From Xanthomarina sp. F2636L (lineage in GTDB: Bacteria; Bacteroidota; Bacteroidia; Flavobacteriales; Flavobacteriaceae), in assembly GCF_026410195.1 (NCBI RefSeq), contig NZ_JAPMLM010000068.1:625001-689000 (forward strand): a DNA stretch of 64,000 bases, given 5' to 3'. This document shows positions 10,084 to 36,919 of the stretch, piece by piece. Made by a program: the position numbers and the translations under genes. The notes beneath the pieces were generated by a model, which made no database searches, was not told the DNA's origin, and saw only the letters and a list, made by a program, of their open reading frames with translations. Position 1 is the first letter of the stretch; every line of letters begins with the position of its first letter.

Positions 10084-10692
10084 ATGGCTTTCGAATTACC
10101 GAAATTAAAATATGTTTATGATGCTTTAGAGCCTCATATAGATGCACGCACAATGGAAATACACCATACAAAGCACCACCAAGGTTACACAAATAACTTA
10201 AATAATGCTATTGAAGGTACAGATTTAGCTGGAAAAACAATAGAAAACATCCTTATTAACCTAGATATGAATAATAAAGCTGTTAGAAATAATGGTGGAG
10301 GTTTTTACAACCACTCGTTATTCTGGGAGGTTATGAATCCTGAAGGAAAAGGATATTTATCTGGAGGTTTAAAAGATGCTATTATTGAAGCTTATGGATC
10401 TGTTGATGCATTTAAAGATGCTTTTAGTAAAGCTGCTGCTACACAATTTGGATCTGGTTGGGCTTGGTTATGTGTTCATAAAGGTGGAAAGGTAGAAGTT
10501 TGTTCTTCACCAAACCAAGATAACCCATTAATGCCAGGAGTTGGTTGTGGTGGTACACCAATTTTAGGATTGGATGTTTGGGAACATGCATATTATTTAA
10601 ACTACCAAAACAGAAGACCAGATTATATTAATGCATTTTTTAATGTTATTAACTGGAATGAAGTTGAAAGACGTTATGCTGAAGCTAAATAA
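10084..10692 (+). CDS. sodA: superoxide dismutase, Mn-type
   Basis: 202 residues from ATG 10084. The frame is open further upstream, but that part overlaps the -7 box, and [20 protein letters not shown] is the standard SOD N-terminus. Metal ligands are His27 (MEIHHTKHH), His77 (YNHSLFW), Asp164 and His168 (LDVWEHAY). The outer-sphere glutamine is in the NQD motif (Gln145), and glycine fills the position used by Gln in Fe-SODs (GGGFYNHS), which points to manganese or mixed metal use. No signal peptide; a cytoplasmic enzyme that dismutates superoxide. Confidence 0.93.
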
Positions 10693-10716
10693 GTAAAACG
10701 CATTTATATTATAATG

Positions 10717-10747
10717 AAAAGCAAACCCAATGGGTTTGCTTTTTTTT
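10717..10747 (+). terminator. Rho-independent terminator of sodA
   Basis: AGCAAACCCA/TGGGTTTGCT hairpin followed by eight T residues, 25 bp after the SOD stop. Confidence 0.88.
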
Positions 10748-10872
10748 ATGACAAAATAAAAATAAACTTGTTTTTTGAACTTAAATGTGAGTTTTGATCA
10801 TAATTAAAATGCATAAAAATTCCATCTTCATAGGAATAAAAAGAGATGTAAATTCACTCAGGTATAAAAATG

Positions 10873-10944
10873 AAAAAAGGCGAACGAGAGTTCACCTTTT
10901 TTGCCCCAAATCTACCATAAACTTAACCTACTTATGTTATGGTA
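10873..10944 (-). ncRNA. small structured RNA candidate, copy 1
   Basis: About 72 bp that recurs almost unchanged 240 bp further on. Read on the minus strand it starts TACCATAACATAAG just after a TATATTTG -7 box, can form a first stem TACCATAA/TTATGGTA, contains a conserved single-stranded GATTTGGGGC, and ends in a GGTGAAC-loop-GTTCGCC hairpin followed by T residues. One pair of that last hairpin is G-U on the minus strand but A-C on the plus strand, which favors minus-strand transcription. No protein-coding frame is credible. I do not recognise the RNA family; it should be compared with Bacteroidota Rfam motifs such as Flavo-1. Confidence 0.6.
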
Positions 10945-10948
10945 AGGC

Positions 10949-10956
10949 CAAATATA
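10949..10956 (-). promoter_or_regulatory. -7 box for small RNA copy 1
   Basis: TATATTTG on the minus strand, an exact TAnnTTTG match, ends four bases before the first conserved base of the repeat. Transcription would start at the very first base of the conserved unit (about 10944). Confidence 0.6.
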
Positions 10957-11114
10957 TAATGCTAAGTACTCTAAAAAAAAATAAATAGATAAACTGCTTA
11001 TAAATTAGGCTAAAAGAGTAAATACGGTCTTTTTAAGGCTAAATATTACATTTTTGAAAAATTTTTATGATGTTTTTTTGTTTTGGATCTAAATGATTTG
11101 CAAACTAAGAAAAT

Positions 11115-11188
11115 AAAAAAAGGCGAACGAAAGTTCACCTTTTTTTGCCCCAAATCTACCATGAACTTAACCTACTTATGTTATGGTA
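11115..11188 (-). ncRNA. small structured RNA candidate, copy 2
   Basis: Second tandem copy of the element at 10873-10944. It is nearly identical: the loop of the end hairpin differs (TTTC instead of TCTC on the minus strand), the T runs are one base longer, and one base of the first stem differs. The terminator-like hairpin GGTGAAC/GTTCGCC and the conserved GATTTGGGGC are unchanged. The rest of the 553-bp gap between sodA and purF (10748-11300) is very AT-rich and shows no gene. Confidence 0.6.
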
Positions 11189-11191
11189 CGT

Positions 11192-11199
11192 CTAATGTA
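11192..11199 (-). promoter_or_regulatory. probable -7 box for small RNA copy 2
   Basis: TACATTAG on the minus strand is one base off TAnnTTTG and lies three bases before the conserved unit, nearly the same place as the perfect box of copy 1. Presence of a box at both copies supports the minus strand as the transcribed strand. Confidence 0.4.
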
Positions 11200-11300
11200 G
11201 TTTTATTTTATTTAAGAATTTTAATATTTTAGATGAACTACAAATTTTTCGGGTAAAAGACATTTTTTATTAGACAAACAGTTAAAAATTAATGTTTTAA

Positions 11301-13199
11301 CTAATAAGCACGTTCTTTATTTCCTTCGAAAAAATTAATAAATGCTCTATTTACAACACGATTTCCTCCAGATGTTGGGTAATTTCCTGTAAAATACCAA
11401 TCTCCTAAGTTTTTAGGACAGGCTTTATGTAAATTTTCCACAGGCTGAAAAATGGCTACCACTTCAGCTTTAACAGAATCGTCTGAAATTAATTCTGCTA
11501 TTTTATTTGATATGGCTTCATCTGAAAATTCAGAATACAAATCTTTTACAAAGTTTGTTACATCCTTATCTTCTAATTCTACTTGTGCTTTACATTTTTC
11601 GTAAACTTCTTGTACTAAATGATATTTGTTATTTTCTTCCAACAATTCTAACATGGCTCTAAAAGCTATTAAATCTTCTAATCTAGCCATATCTATTCCG
11701 TAGCAATCTGGATAACGTATTTGTGGGGCAGAGGAAACCACAACTATTTTTTTAGGATGTAATCGATCCATCATTTTAATAATACTCATTTTAAGAGTCG
11801 TTCCTCTTACAATACTATCGTCAATTATCACTAAGTTGTCTGTTGGTTTAATAACACCATAAGTAACATCGTAAACGTGTGCTACCAAATCGTTTCGGCT
11901 ACTATCTTCAGTAATAAAAGTTCTTAGCTTAACATCTTTAATAGCTATTTTTTCAATACGTGGACGTTCAGATAAAATTTGAGTCACCCTTTCAGCAGAA
12001 AGTTTTCCGTTTCCATCTAAAATAGCTTGTGTCTTTTTCTTATTAAGATAATCTTCAACAGTTTCAATCATTCCAAAGAAAGAGGTCTCAGCTGTATTAG
12101 GAATATAAGAAAATACAGAATTTTTAGTGTCATTATCAATAGCTTCTAAAACTTTAGGCATTAATAACTTTCCTAAAGTTTTACGTTCTTGATAAATTTC
12201 AGCATCACTTCCTCTAGAAAAATAAATTCGCTCAAAAGAACAAGCTTTTCGTTCTAATGGTTCAATAATTTTCTTAATTGAAACATCGCCAGATTTTTTA
12301 GTAATAATGGCATGTCCTGGTTCTAATTCCATAACGTCTTCAAAAGCCACATTAAAGACTGTTTGAATTACTGGACGCTCTGAAGCTACGACTACAACCT
12401 CATCGTCTTTATAATAATATACGGGTCTAATTCCAGCTGGATCACGTAAAACAAAAGAATCTCCATGACCTAAAAGTCCAGCCATAGCATAACCTCCATC
12501 CCAGTTTTTTGAAGAGCGTTTCAATATTTTTGCTACATTAAGACGTTCGGCAATTAATGGACTACATTCATTTTTATTATAGCCTTCATTTTTAAGTTGT
12601 TTGTATTTTTTGGCTACAGCATCGTCTAAAAAATGACCAATCTTTTCCATAATAGTAACCGTGTCTGCCATTTCTTTTGGATGTTGACCAATTCTAACCA
12701 ACTCATCAAACAACTCATTAACATTGGTCATATTAAAGTTCCCGGCAAGAATTAAATTTCTGTGCATCCAATTATTCTGTCTTAAAAATGGATGAACATT
12801 TTCTACACTATTTTTACCAAAAGTACCATATCTAACATGGCCAAGAAGTACCTCGCCTATGTATGGTAACTCTTTCTTTTGTTTAGCAACATCATCCTTA
12901 TATTCTGGGTGTTCTTGCATTTCTTTATTGATCCTATCGTTTATCTGTGCAAAAATATCCTGAATAGGCTGTTGTGCTATAGAACGCACACGACTTATAT
13001 ATCTTTCACCCGGTTTGGTATCTAACTTTATACTTGCAAACCCTGCACCATCTTGACCACGATTGTGCTGTTTCTCCATCATGAGATACATTTTATTTAC
13101 GCCATAAAAAGCAGTTCCGTATTTTTTATGATAAAACTCTAAAGGTTTTAAAAGCCTTATGTGTGCAATTCCACATTCATGTTTTAAAGCGTCACTCAT
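11301..13199 (-). CDS. purF: amidophosphoribosyltransferase
   Basis: 632 residues. The N-terminal Ntn-type glutamine amidotransferase domain has its nucleophile in ECGIAHI (Cys9), preceded by an eight-residue leader that would be removed by self-processing. HNRGQDGAG and GHVRYGTFG are conserved glutaminase loops. A C-terminal phosphoribosyltransferase domain holds the PRPP motif VIIDDSIVRGTT (about 457-468). It makes phosphoribosylamine, the first step of purine synthesis. At 632 residues it is longer than E. coli PurF (about 505), as in other Bacteroidota. purN lies upstream in the same direction. Confidence 0.9.
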   Translation of the reverse strand: MSDALKHECGIAHIRLLKPLEFYHKKYGTAFYGVNKMYLMMEKQHNRGQDGAGFASIKLDTKPGERYISRVRSIAQQPIQDIFAQINDRINKEMQEHPEYKDDVAKQKKELPYIGEVLLGHVRYGTFGKNSVENVHPFLRQNNWMHRNLILAGNFNMTNVNELFDELVRIGQHPKEMADTVTIMEKIGHFLDDAVAKKYKQLKNEGYNKNECSPLIAERLNVAKILKRSSKNWDGGYAMAGLLGHGDSFVLRDPAGIRPVYYYKDDEVVVVASERPVIQTVFNVAFEDVMELEPGHAIITKKSGDVSIKKIIEPLERKACSFERIYFSRGSDAEIYQERKTLGKLLMPKVLEAIDNDTKNSVFSYIPNTAETSFFGMIETVEDYLNKKKTQAILDGNGKLSAERVTQILSERPRIEKIAIKDVKLRTFITEDSSRNDLVAHVYDVTYGVIKPTDNLVIIDDSIVRGTTLKMSIIKMMDRLHPKKIVVVSSAPQIRYPDCYGIDMARLEDLIAFRAMLELLEENNKYHLVQEVYEKCKAQVELEDKDVTNFVKDLYSEFSDEAISNKIAELISDDSVKAEVVAIFQPVENLHKACPKNLGDWYFTGNYPTSGGNRVVNRAFINFFEGNKERAY

Positions 13200-32500: not shown

Positions 32501-33928
32501 ATGAAAAAACTACTACTTTTTATTGCTATACTCTTTTCCGTTGGCGTTACTGCCCAAATTACTTTTGATGCAACTCAACCTTATATTAATTCAATGTATG
32601 GTGCTGGTAAATTTATAACGATTAATTCAGCAACAGGAGAGCGTGCTGTATTGATAGCAGGCAAAAATACGAATGTTAGTGGCGAAAATGGATCTACTAA
32701 ATTATTTGCGATAGATGGAACAGAATTATTTGATTTTAATTTAGAATCTATAGGCTCAAAAGTTTCTTTTTTTGAAGAAAATAACTATATTTATATCGCT
32801 ATTATTACCAAGGATTACGGCAAAAAAGTTTTCCGTGCCTTAATGGATGGGAATACAAATTTTACAGAAATTTATTCCGATACCATAAATTATTCAAATC
32901 AAACCATTACCAATATTGATATAAATGATGATGGATTTGAAGATTTTTTATTTAGTGGATATAGCTGGTTAATTAATGCTCCAGATGCCAAGGTATTGTT
33001 AAACAATGGCGACGGAACAATGACATTGGTTTCAGCTCCGGCAATTATTCCAATAGTAAATAATGGACAGTATAAATCTGCAATGCTAGATAATAGTGGT
33101 AAAAAACACTTGGTAGTTATTGATCCTGGTTTTGGTTATATTATTAAAAACCATGGAAATGGAGTTTTTACTCAGGAATTTACGCTAAACGATGCTGGAG
33201 GTTATTCGCATATTGCTATTAGTGATATAGATATTGATGGATTGAATGATATTTCTATTTTTTCTGTTGATGGTTCAAATGATGGAACCATGTTGTATAA
33301 GAATCTTGGAAATCTTGATTTTGAATCACATGATTCTGTTTTTACCGGCTTACCAAACGTATGGGATGGAGAAATAGAATATGCTGATTTTAATGGCGAC
33401 CAGTTACCCGATGCAGTTATTGCAGCACAGCGACTAAATGGTTCATTTGTAAATAAGATATATTTACAATCTGACAGTTTCAAATTTACGGGAGGAGAAA
33501 TAGATTTTACGGTTCAGGATGAATGGGGTAATTCAGATACTTTGTATATTATCCAGGGCTCTGTAGATATTTATGATTACAATAATGATAACAGGCTAGA
33601 TATTTTGTTTACAGGGAATTCTGGTGTTGGAGCTGGTCCATTTGCTTTACCGCGAACCTGGCTCATGACCAACACTTCAACACTATCTATTGATGAATTT
33701 CAACAAGCTAGTTTTACTATGTATCCAAACCCAGCACGAGACATCGTCTCGTTCAAAGGAATAGATACGATTAAATCTGTTGAAGTCTTTAGCCAATTAG
33801 GTCAAAAGGTACTTTCAGTACAAGATACACATTCAATAAACATTGAATCATTATCTACAGGAATGTATTTGGTTCAAGTGCAAGATGCCAATCATAGAAC
33901 GTTTCAAAAAAAGTTAATAAAGAAATAG
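32501..33928 (+). CDS. FG-GAP/VCBS-type secreted protein with T9SS C-terminal sorting domain
   Basis: 475 residues. Signal peptide MKKLLLFIAILFSVGVTAQ. The body has repeated calcium-binding FG-GAP-like loops (DINDDGFEDFLFSGY, DIDGLNDISIF, DFNGDQLPDAVIA, DYNNDNRLDILFTG), suggesting a beta-propeller. The C-terminus (about 400-475: SFTMYPNPARDIVSFKG ... LSTGMYLVQVQD ... KKLIKK) is a type A type IX secretion sorting domain, so the protein is exported through the outer membrane and attached to the surface or released. It is a paralogue of 35489-36919. Ligand or partner unknown. Confidence 0.88.
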   Translation: MKKLLLFIAILFSVGVTAQITFDATQPYINSMYGAGKFITINSATGERAVLIAGKNTNVSGENGSTKLFAIDGTELFDFNLESIGSKVSFFEENNYIYIAIITKDYGKKVFRALMDGNTNFTEIYSDTINYSNQTITNIDINDDGFEDFLFSGYSWLINAPDAKVLLNNGDGTMTLVSAPAIIPIVNNGQYKSAMLDNSGKKHLVVIDPGFGYIIKNHGNGVFTQEFTLNDAGGYSHIAISDIDIDGLNDISIFSVDGSNDGTMLYKNLGNLDFESHDSVFTGLPNVWDGEIEYADFNGDQLPDAVIAAQRLNGSFVNKIYLQSDSFKFTGGEIDFTVQDEWGNSDTLYIIQGSVDIYDYNNDNRLDILFTGNSGVGAGPFALPRTWLMTNTSTLSIDEFQQASFTMYPNPARDIVSFKGIDTIKSVEVFSQLGQKVLSVQDTHSINIESLSTGMYLVQVQDANHRTFQKKLIKK

Positions 33929-35488: not shown

Positions 35489-36919
35489 ATGAAAGTAATT
35501 TTACCAGTATTGATGTTTGTATTAACATCTTTTGGAGTATATGCTCAAATAAATTTTTCAGCAACTTCTTTACCTCCAGCTATGTATGGTTGTGGAGATT
35601 GGGTAACTATTGATTCATCAACAAATGAACGAGCTATATTAATTGGTGGAGAGACTGCTAATGGAGCACCAGGAACTAATGGTGCCGTTAAATTAATGAG
35701 CCAAGATAGTAATCTAAACTGGATAGAAAAATATAATTTCTATTTACAGGCAGATGAACCTCGCACAGCTTTTTTTTATGAAAATAATTATGTGTATATA
35801 GCATTTGTTACCTTATTTCAAGAGCTAAGGATATTTAGAGCTCTTATGGATGGTAGTGCTAATTTCACAGAAGTCTATTCAAGCTATGATATCGGTTATC
35901 TCAGAGCAACAATTACAGCTATTGATATAAACGATGATGGATTTGAAGATTTCTTGTTTAGTGGATATGCATATACCGGAAATACTCCAGATGTAGGTTT
36001 AATACAGAACAATGGCGATGGTACTTTTTCTTCAGCTTCACCACCAGCAAATATTCCACCAGCAAACGCTGGATATTATGAATCTGGCTTTCTTGATAAT
36101 AGTGGTAGAAAACATCTCGTGATTATTTCTGCTGAGGTAGATGCGGTTTTTGAAAATCAAGGAAATGGTGTATTTACACAGGTTTTTGTTTTAGAAAATA
36201 CACCAAGTCGTGTTCATGTAGCTATTATTGATTTAGATAATGATGGATTGAATGATATTTCAGTAACTGGACCAAATGGTACTAGTGATTCTGGAACTAT
36301 GTTGTTTAAGAACCTTGGAAATCTTGATTTTCAAAATTACAATTCAGCATATACAGGATTACCAAATACCTATTATGGAGAAACAGAATATTCAGATTTG
36401 AATAATGATGGTTATATGGACGCAATCATATTAGGAAAACTTTTAGACAATACCCTTATCACAAAAATACTTTTTGGCTCTGATAATTTTAGATTTTTTG
36501 GAGATGAATATATTTTTACTGATCAAATGGGAAATCCAATCAATCTCTCAAGTGGTACAGTTGATATTCATGATTATAATAGTGATGGGAAACCAGATGT
36601 TCTTCTTACAGGAAGAGCTATTGTTGATAATGATATAGAGCCTCAAACCTGGCTCATGACCAACACCTCAACACTATCTATTGATGAATTTCAACAAGTT
36701 AGTTTTACTATGTATCCAAACCCAGCACGAGACATTGTCTCGTTCAAAGGAATAGACGCTATTAAATCTGTTGAAGTGTTTAATCAATTAGGTCAAAAAG
36801 TTCTATCTACAAAAGATGCTTATTCAATAAATATTGAATCATTATCTACAGGCATGTATCTGGTTCAAGTACAAGATGCGAATCATAGAACGTTTCAAAA
36901 AAAGTTGGTTGTAAAATAG
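35489..36919 (+). CDS. FG-GAP/VCBS-type secreted protein with T9SS C-terminal sorting domain (paralogue)
   Basis: 476 residues, same design as 32501-33928: signal peptide MKVILPVLMFVLTSFGVYAQ, FG-GAP-like loops (DINDDGFEDFLFSGY, DLDNDGLNDISV, DLNNDGYMDAIIL, DYNSDGKPDVLLTG), and a C-terminal T9SS domain starting SFTMYPNPARDIVSFKG. The propeller bodies differ clearly, while the last 90 residues are almost the same in protein and DNA. Function unknown; surface binding or adhesion is a guess from the fold. Confidence 0.88.
   Translation: MKVILPVLMFVLTSFGVYAQINFSATSLPPAMYGCGDWVTIDSSTNERAILIGGETANGAPGTNGAVKLMSQDSNLNWIEKYNFYLQADEPRTAFFYENNYVYIAFVTLFQELRIFRALMDGSANFTEVYSSYDIGYLRATITAIDINDDGFEDFLFSGYAYTGNTPDVGLIQNNGDGTFSSASPPANIPPANAGYYESGFLDNSGRKHLVIISAEVDAVFENQGNGVFTQVFVLENTPSRVHVAIIDLDNDGLNDISVTGPNGTSDSGTMLFKNLGNLDFQNYNSAYTGLPNTYYGETEYSDLNNDGYMDAIILGKLLDNTLITKILFGSDNFRFFGDEYIFTDQMGNPINLSSGTVDIHDYNSDGKPDVLLTGRAIVDNDIEPQTWLMTNTSTLSIDEFQQVSFTMYPNPARDIVSFKGIDAIKSVEVFNQLGQKVLSTKDAYSINIESLSTGMYLVQVQDANHRTFQKKLVVK

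Follow-up and report, generated by a model that had tools for sequence, protein, structure and literature searches.

The window, a stretch of 64,000 nucleotides of Xanthomarina sp. F2636L DNA, contains two putative small RNA units in tandem, which lie on the minus strand between a gene read as purF and a convergent sodA gene (Table 1). The ORF at 11301–13199 is presumably PurF, a name that rests on the judgement of a preliminary description of this DNA and on our own; Pfam identifies only glutamine amidotransferase domains in its product. Counted from a conserved ACC through the last T of the T run, the two units start 244 bp apart and differ by two substitutions and by a single A and a single T in their A and T runs, in agreement with the nearly identical units of about 72 bp, some 240 bp apart, that had been described here. 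The −7 box that had been noted at the same place before each unit is likewise present (Table 1). Each unit has the same layout, namely a predicted 5’ stem, an unpaired GATTTGGGGC (seed A), a terminator hairpin and the T run, with a second putative pairing segment (seed B) within the 5’ stem. The first 41 nt are nearly invariant among relatives and are conserved more than the terminator itself. By inspection, without a formal coding test, these 41 nt show no codon pattern, and the A run changes by one and two bases.

Table 1. Features of the locus and of the putative target gene (positions are those of the window unless a contig is named)
Feature	Position	Strand	Remarks
sodA (Fe/Mn superoxide dismutase)	10084..10692	plus	convergent, downstream; ORF and domain match; synteny
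sRNA copy distal to purF	10873..10943	minus	71 nt; predicted 5’ end 10943
Seed A, distal copy	10903..10912	minus	same place as in proximal copy
Seed B, distal copy	10923..10936	minus	
−7 box TATATTTG, distal copy	10949..10956	minus	begins 13 bp before conserved start; position conserved in 179 promoters
Activator-like box GTTTATCTA	10986..10994	minus	~50 bp before distal start
sRNA copy proximal to purF	11115..11187	minus	73 nt; predicted 5’ end 11187; homologues found
Seed A GATTTGGGGC, proximal copy	11147..11156	minus	unpaired, between two stems
Seed B CATAAGTAGGTTAA, proximal copy	11167..11180	minus	upper part and loop of predicted 5’ stem
−7 box TACATTAG, proximal copy	11192..11199	minus	begins 12 bp before conserved start; position conserved in 179 promoters
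Activator-like box GTTCATCTA	11230..11238	minus	~50 bp before proximal start; positional preference in relatives
Second, weaker repeat TTTTACCCG of proximal array	11250..11258	minus	20 bp further upstream; read by eye; periodicity in relatives
Third repeat GTTTGTCTA of proximal array	11271..11279	minus	21 bp further upstream; read by eye; periodicity in relatives
purF	11301..13199	minus	directly upstream; ORF; conserved synteny
Small-protein ORF, source genome	G000:C65:837400-837525		outside window, ~200 kb from sRNA, same contig

Upstream of the −7 box of each unit is a direct-repeat array that was absent from the preliminary description. In 179 distinct promoters of this RNA, the −7 region reads T at −12 (92%), A at −11 (92%), T at −8 (100%) and T at −7 (96%), and two further blocks, TT followed some five bases on by C, recur near −70 and −50. 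The flavobacterial housekeeping −7 box is given as TAnnTTTG at −12 to −5 in a published account (PMC9723704). A wider set of 236 promoters contains a box-like string in 204; the 278 matches start predominantly at −49/−50 (150) and −69/−70 (87), with another 12 at −89/−90. The 20 bp period of the direct repeat fits the expectation for an activator bound to one face of the helix. An activator, inferred here and not identified, probably binds these repeats and helps transcription of the sRNA. Across the source genome, the box pattern is rarer than its reversed control (15 versus 31 matches). Each unit can be regarded, at the sequence level only, as a free-standing gene whose promoter is of the Bacteroidetes type and which ends in an intrinsic terminator of its own.

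The RNA is widespread in, and apparently restricted to, the window’s family. A DNA search, in which as a rule four first-look candidates were scored per genome, finds it in 167 of 199 Flavobacteriaceae genomes (E≤0.01), which excludes a chance origin of the units. A pattern scan of named genomes yields at least 80 loci in Flavobacterium, Aquimarina, Winogradskyella, Algibacter, Formosa, Xanthomarina and others, and the matches listed also include some metagenome bins whose labels are loose or odd, among them one called Lentimicrobium. All 26 genomes (of 196) that match at E≤1e-6 in an order-level search belong to this family. At class level, 104 genomes outside the family have weak model matches (E≤0.1); 15 of the best were read and rejected as homologues, as they share similar terminators only and lack the 41 nt core. 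No convincing copy outside the Flavobacteriaceae was therefore found in the order search or among these 15 matches, and one scan of viral contigs returned no exact match to an 18 nt core.

Copy number varies among relatives. In 119 loci, including incomplete ones and several from one genome, the core is present once in 50, twice in 52, three times in 13 and four times in 4, with a median copy spacing of 214 bp; counted per genome with the covariance model, there are six copies in G001 and five each in G630, G160, G653 and G032. In G630 (C4:179328-180128), four equal-scoring copies recur almost exactly every ~242 bp, an arrangement suggestive of a recent tandem duplication or of gene conversion. 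In the source genome, the two units are the only two matches near 100 bits, and a covariance model search of that genome reveals no third copy near their score. The six other matches reach at most 29 bits and were rejected as extra copies: three (L036, L038, L039) prove to be terminators, two more are the units themselves read on the plus strand, and the last (L040) lies antisense to the small-gene locus described below. The order purF-RNA-RNA-sodA, which had not been noted before, is kept among relatives. Among the 97 loci for which at least 1500 nt of upstream sequence is available, 93 have the gene read as PurF ahead of the RNA and on its strand, typically 115–130 nt before the sRNA core, and SodA is present in 98 of 115 loci.

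Two lines of evidence bear on the strand and structure of the predicted transcript. First, the terminator stem GGTGAAC/GTTCGCC pairs completely only on the minus strand, through a G-U pair, as the preliminary description had claimed. Both strands fold better than shuffled sequences (z of −4.1 and −3.9 for minus, −5.2 and −4.5 for plus), so folding energy leaves the strand undecided; the minus strand is indicated for the putative RNA by the promoters, the seeds and G-U changes in relatives. Second, covariation was assessed in 18 distinct rows, from 20 copies picked by hand so that divergent ones were included. The terminator helix has double-sided changes in 5 of 12 pairs, with 98% of cells paired; the 5’ helix has no such change in any of its 11 pairs, and 8 of the 18 rows break one of its inner pairs. 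For the structure as a whole, none of 500 shuffles and no slid version reaches the covariation score or the cell counts; 15 of the 500 shuffles attain the number of doubly changed pairs, and 263 attain the number of pair types. Covariation thus supports the minus-strand terminator and does not support the 5’ stem. The preliminary description, which had taken the conserved interior and the first stem as signs of a function beyond termination, needs one correction here, namely that the first stem lacks support from covariation. The invariance of the 5’ part is likely better explained by complementarity to targets, presented below, than by the first stem.

A search of the whole window against Rfam 15 at gathering score identifies a tRNA elsewhere and nothing at the units. 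The Flavo-1 motif, named beforehand as one to look for, is absent at gathering score and is not one of the 45 matches that positions 10680-11320 yield with E values of at most 10; the sub-threshold matches are mostly terminator look-alikes. Of the outcomes named beforehand as refuting a new RNA, those that sequence analysis can show, an Rfam match to a known attenuator or a plain repeat family, have not occurred. Taken with conservation across the family, promoter elements at fixed distances and a covarying terminator stem, the lack of an Rfam match at threshold supports the proposal that the units represent an unassigned small RNA in tandem.

A likely main target emerges from the near-complements of the seeds. 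Allowing at most three mismatches, seed A with its 5’ neighbours has complements at 22 places in the source genome, versus 13 for the reversed pattern; the 22 include both units and one place with three near-complements ~40 bp apart, and of 17 others, 13 lie opposite a coding sequence. The seed B pattern, with 46 matches, is rarer than its reversed control (71). A two-site pattern, CAAATCTACCN{10,40}CAAATCTACC, occurs in 21 of the 199 family genomes, its reversed control has no match in any of the 199, and all 21 matches fall in the start region of one small ORF of 40–42 codons. Its product typically has ~42 residues in the form MNxATNLPEQPTNDESKFKETLKENLQFFKSLxYLTKKIFML, for which Pfam and NCBIfam return nothing (two sequences searched in each). 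One site lies before the start codon or reaches it and another lies over approximately codons 4–8; many leaders of the small gene have a further CCCCAAA near the 5’ end. The three-site locus was considered as a non-coding sponge, an idea dropped because the sites flank the start of this conserved ORF. The gene upstream of the source-genome ORF reads like a CoA-transferase subunit, although no family search was made. The small gene has the same coordinates in Xanthomarina gelatinilytica (L072, G503) and in G038, the only relative listed from the window’s genus, in line with a probable placement of that genus as Xanthomarina. In two loci, the leader contains a self-complementary string, AGATTTGCCCCAAATCT in L281 and AGATTTCCCCAAATCT in L287, that would display CCCC in a loop; this CCCC is the part predicted to pair with the GGGG of the sRNA.

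Predicted duplex energies separate the small gene from other gene starts. For 54 small-gene starts (52 loci), they range from −31.0 to −51.5 kcal/mol, and none of 468 control starts is below −29.8 kcal/mol: the best of 45 window starts is −26.2, and the 423 starts in relatives’ loci have a best value of −29.8, a mean of −17.4 and an s.d. of 3.1. Protein similarity recovered 31 of the 52 loci, but the model used was built from members found by pattern. The target start in the source genome reaches −36.9 kcal/mol, versus −29.0 for the best of 500 shuffles, and its start region holds three separate sites of −33.0, −35.5 and −36.3 kcal/mol. Across the counted stretch of the 31 protein-found loci, there is one site core in 11, two in 15, three in 4 and five in 1. 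The complementarity between the 41 nt of the predicted RNA and the start region of small-protein mRNAs, often at two or more sites, thus holds up against these controls.

The codons of the small ORF are informative on both the site and the product. In 29 of the same 31 ORFs, the leucine codon inside the site is CTA, compared with 33 of 165 other leucine codons (p=3e-15, not a strict probability, as the sequences are related). Over codons 13–37, 57% of single-base differences are synonymous versus 18% expected, with third positions varying most; judged by this pattern, the small ORF is evolving as a protein. Its distribution lies within that of the RNA. At E≤0.001 the small protein is matched in 84 genomes, all 84 of which have the sRNA, and in 0 of the 32 genomes without it (p of 4e-9, which is optimistic given that the genomes are related). 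Some of the 84 matches cover the C-terminal half only, and one has an internal stop. In 83 genomes the sRNA occurs without a protein match at this threshold, partly because divergent forms score low. Among 14 hand-picked named genomes, 9 match the protein at E≤0.001, and two Flavobacterium, one Christiangramia, one Aequorivita and one Salegentibacter genome do not.

Some of these 83 genomes carry shorter, divergent forms of the protein, which end in LTKKLFML or alike and show weaker pairing at their starts; some forms have only 26–29 residues. Twenty divergent loci were fetched, of which L272 and L279 gave no ORF by the rule used and were left out. The predicted duplexes of 11 MEAQ-type forms (−18.5 to −32.3 kcal/mol) overlap the controls, and those of 7 other divergent forms range from −19.3 to −35.0 kcal/mol. 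One further locus, L299, fits the small protein by eye; it was lost by the regular expression and is thus outside the set used for energies, codons, co-occurrence and amphipathicity. In L229 and other loci, what looks like the terminator hairpin of the small gene has its 5’ arm in the last codons (often ATA TTC ATG CTA TAA), an overlap that may explain part of the conserved C-terminal residues. Upstream of the small ORF in many MEAQ-type genomes (L261–L271), a different string, TTCACAACA, is repeated ~21–22 bp apart beside TTCATCGA-like boxes, and a second regulator is possible in these genomes.

The small gene and the RNA have a control element in common. In 36 of 39 pairings scored, the box of the sRNA promoters is present 47–49 bp before the −7 box of the small gene, a position one helical turn off that in the RNA promoters, and a second, degenerate repeat can be read by eye. 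We consider it probable that the units encode a multicopy trans-acting base-pairing RNA of ~72 nt, found in the Flavobacteriaceae, that represses co-activated targets, chiefly the mRNA of the small protein. The RNA family, its promoters and terminators, the synteny, the complementarity, the shared box and the coding nature of the small gene have all been read from DNA; expression, pairing in the cell, repression and the activator are inferred. Under this model, the units would be paralogous copies, each with its own promoter and terminator, and firing of the activator would produce the RNA copies and their targets together. The loop region of the predicted 5’ stem would expose seed B, and seed A would be unpaired ahead of the terminator; both would pair with target mRNAs across the leader, the start codon and the earliest codons. 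An RNA that pairs over a start codon usually represses. Both that generality and the mode of action reported for FopS RNAs (PMC11697453) underlie the inference of repression here; pairing would most likely block translation initiation by keeping ribosomes off the message. Several RNA copies acting on several target sites would create a sharp threshold, and the small-gene mRNA may absorb the RNA in turn, sparing other messages. Activator, RNA and targets would thus form a feed-forward loop. In feed-forward loops of a regulator-activated sRNA and its target, one activator site precedes the RNA and the target alike; the present case differs in its unidentified activator and in having target sites within the coding sequence.

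Genes for secreted proteins provide further candidate targets. The box precedes three source-genome genes for apparently secreted proteins, of which one pairs strongly, one moderately and one not. The first, of 269 residues with a signal-like start, has TCCCAAATC in its leader and TTAACCTACTTATG in codons 3–8 (duplex −36.4 kcal/mol). The other two are large. A gene of 1709 aa, with a choice-of-anchor D domain and sub-cutoff matches to type IX secretion system (T9SS) sorting signals, pairs at −26.1 kcal/mol, about the best window control; a gene of 1620 aa, whose TTG start was our choice, has choice-of-anchor L and T9SS type B sorting domains and pairs at −14.5 kcal/mol, no better than average. 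Two other candidates (L318, L341) pair at about −24 kcal/mol and lack the box, and sites picked by complementarity alone reach −30 to −31 kcal/mol without being clear gene starts. A sample not chosen for pairing comprises the 381 ORFs of at least 100 codons in the window and 20 pieces of 20 kb of the source genome. Within it, the strongest duplex (−27.9 kcal/mol) is that of an ORF that has a signal-like start and ranks sixth by box score. Stronger pairing at the starts of T9SS proteins (p=0.002) is a lead only: it involves 5 genes chosen by regular expression, one start is probably miscalled, and the comparison was sought after the top hits had been seen. Some secreted-protein genes with an upstream box are probable further targets of the predicted RNA. 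Just upstream of one box-bearing source-genome gene (L338, C53 near 120880), upstream of position 1500 on the minus strand, is a run of a 12 bp repeat, GAAACCATAGGG. Within the window, two plus-strand ORFs (32501-33928 and 35489-36919) have nearly the same T9SS-like C-terminal tail, and none of the window’s control starts forms a stronger duplex with the sRNA than that of the second (−26.2 kcal/mol).

To our knowledge, little is known about post-transcriptional control in Flavobacteriaceae. An RNA that is present in most of the family genomes searched and has no match at threshold in Rfam 15 here indicates its own main target by sequence. With it come an undescribed small protein, a promoter box common to both genes and a possible connection to surface proteins secreted by the type IX system, which opens a putative, so far hidden control circuit of the family to testing. 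The range of the RNA, its control element, its likely main target and the possible surface-protein link all go beyond the preliminary description. One extension remains tentative, and we would not be surprised to see it fail: the circuit may be ancient and centred on the RNA, with one unidentified activator turning on the sRNA array, the tiny protein whose N-terminal codons the sRNA has shaped, and large surface proteins of the T9SS. In that case the mRNA of the small gene would be both a message and, through its complements of the sRNA (up to five), the sponge that sets the threshold for the surface proteins.

The same multiplicity of sites raises an alternative, unlikely in our judgement although it cannot be set aside lightly, in which the small-gene mRNA is mainly a decoy that titrates the RNA off other mRNAs and the peptide is secondary. 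The three strong sites in the source genome, the loci with up to five cores and the pairing of the same RNA with other box-bearing genes are all compatible with such a role. It is harder to reconcile with an ORF that, by its mostly synonymous differences, evolves as a protein, and with sites that flank the start codon, an arrangement that suits translational control.

Another alternative, which we hold to be distinctly less plausible, is a system like type I toxin-antitoxin pairs, in which the cationic small protein, unless silenced by the multicopy RNA, would harm the cell that makes it; such harm is undemonstrated. In OhsC/ShoB, an example of a trans-encoded type I antitoxin, the RNA likewise has complementarity to where a small hydrophobic ORF begins. 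The peptides here are short, cationic and hydrophobic at the C-terminus, with a mean hydrophobic moment of 0.42 in the collected set, and some have as few as 26 residues; the RNA is complementary to their start region and occurs in every genome with a protein match. However, of the 5 peptides whose amphipathicity was compared with shuffles, only 2 stand out (below 5%), and the 83 genomes that keep the RNA without a protein match also count against this reading. Unlike a classical antisense pair, the RNA gene is neither antisense to the small gene nor beside it, and the two are ~200 kb apart on contig C65, also a difference from OhsC/ShoB. The one upstream box common to RNA and small gene, and the additional candidate targets, likewise speak against it.

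It is very unlikely that this RNA is a flavobacterial branch of the Bacteroides FopS RNAs. The FopS RNAs of Bacteroides thetaiotaomicron are reported to act with RbpB, to be multicopy, to measure ~65–70 nt and to have canonical promoters, and they pair at translation starts, mostly of SusC-like transporter mRNAs, repressing translation (PMC11697453). The likeness lies in the logic of several RNA copies that pair close to start codons (PMC11697453), together with a sub-threshold match to the FopS model (RF04319) of 20.1 bits. This is far below the gathering score of 56, and the model does not match the RNA once the terminator is removed. Similarity to the R1’ seed of FopS is not significant (local alignment p=0.17, 2000 shuffles), no RRM_1 protein that could be an RbpB-like partner or chaperone was found in the source genome at E≤0.001, and no intermediate is present among the 15 class-level matches read. 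Membership based on a shared string, TTCATGG and then TAGATTT, was considered and rejected on the same p value and score. Moreover, the copies here are in tandem at one conserved locus, and the candidate targets are a small protein and secreted proteins. By the tests made, the predicted RNA is not a FopS RNA, and FopS is the nearest described system found in logic, not in sequence.

Within the same bacterial family, 85 new RNAs have been described in Flavobacterium psychrophilum, one of which, Rfp18, is a regulatory RNA that affects secreted metalloproteases and is described to pair through a third stem-loop (PMC9723704); the present RNA has two predicted stems. Among the matches listed in a literature search of titles and abstract starts, there is no recognisable description of this RNA or of the small protein. 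The repressing RNA proposed here is rated an addition to a known kind, the trans-acting sRNAs, with an unusual multi-site target.

That the units are merely terminators or a purF attenuator, 3’-UTR hairpins without a function of their own, is scarcely credible: they do follow purF on the same strand at a near-constant distance and are good terminators, but they have their own promoter elements at fixed positions and occur in up to six copies, the 41 nt before the terminator are conserved more than the terminator, and the complementarity to the target would be left unexplained. At the other end of the intergenic region, a likely sodA terminator hairpin can be read by eye at window positions 10720-10747, facing both sRNA terminators.
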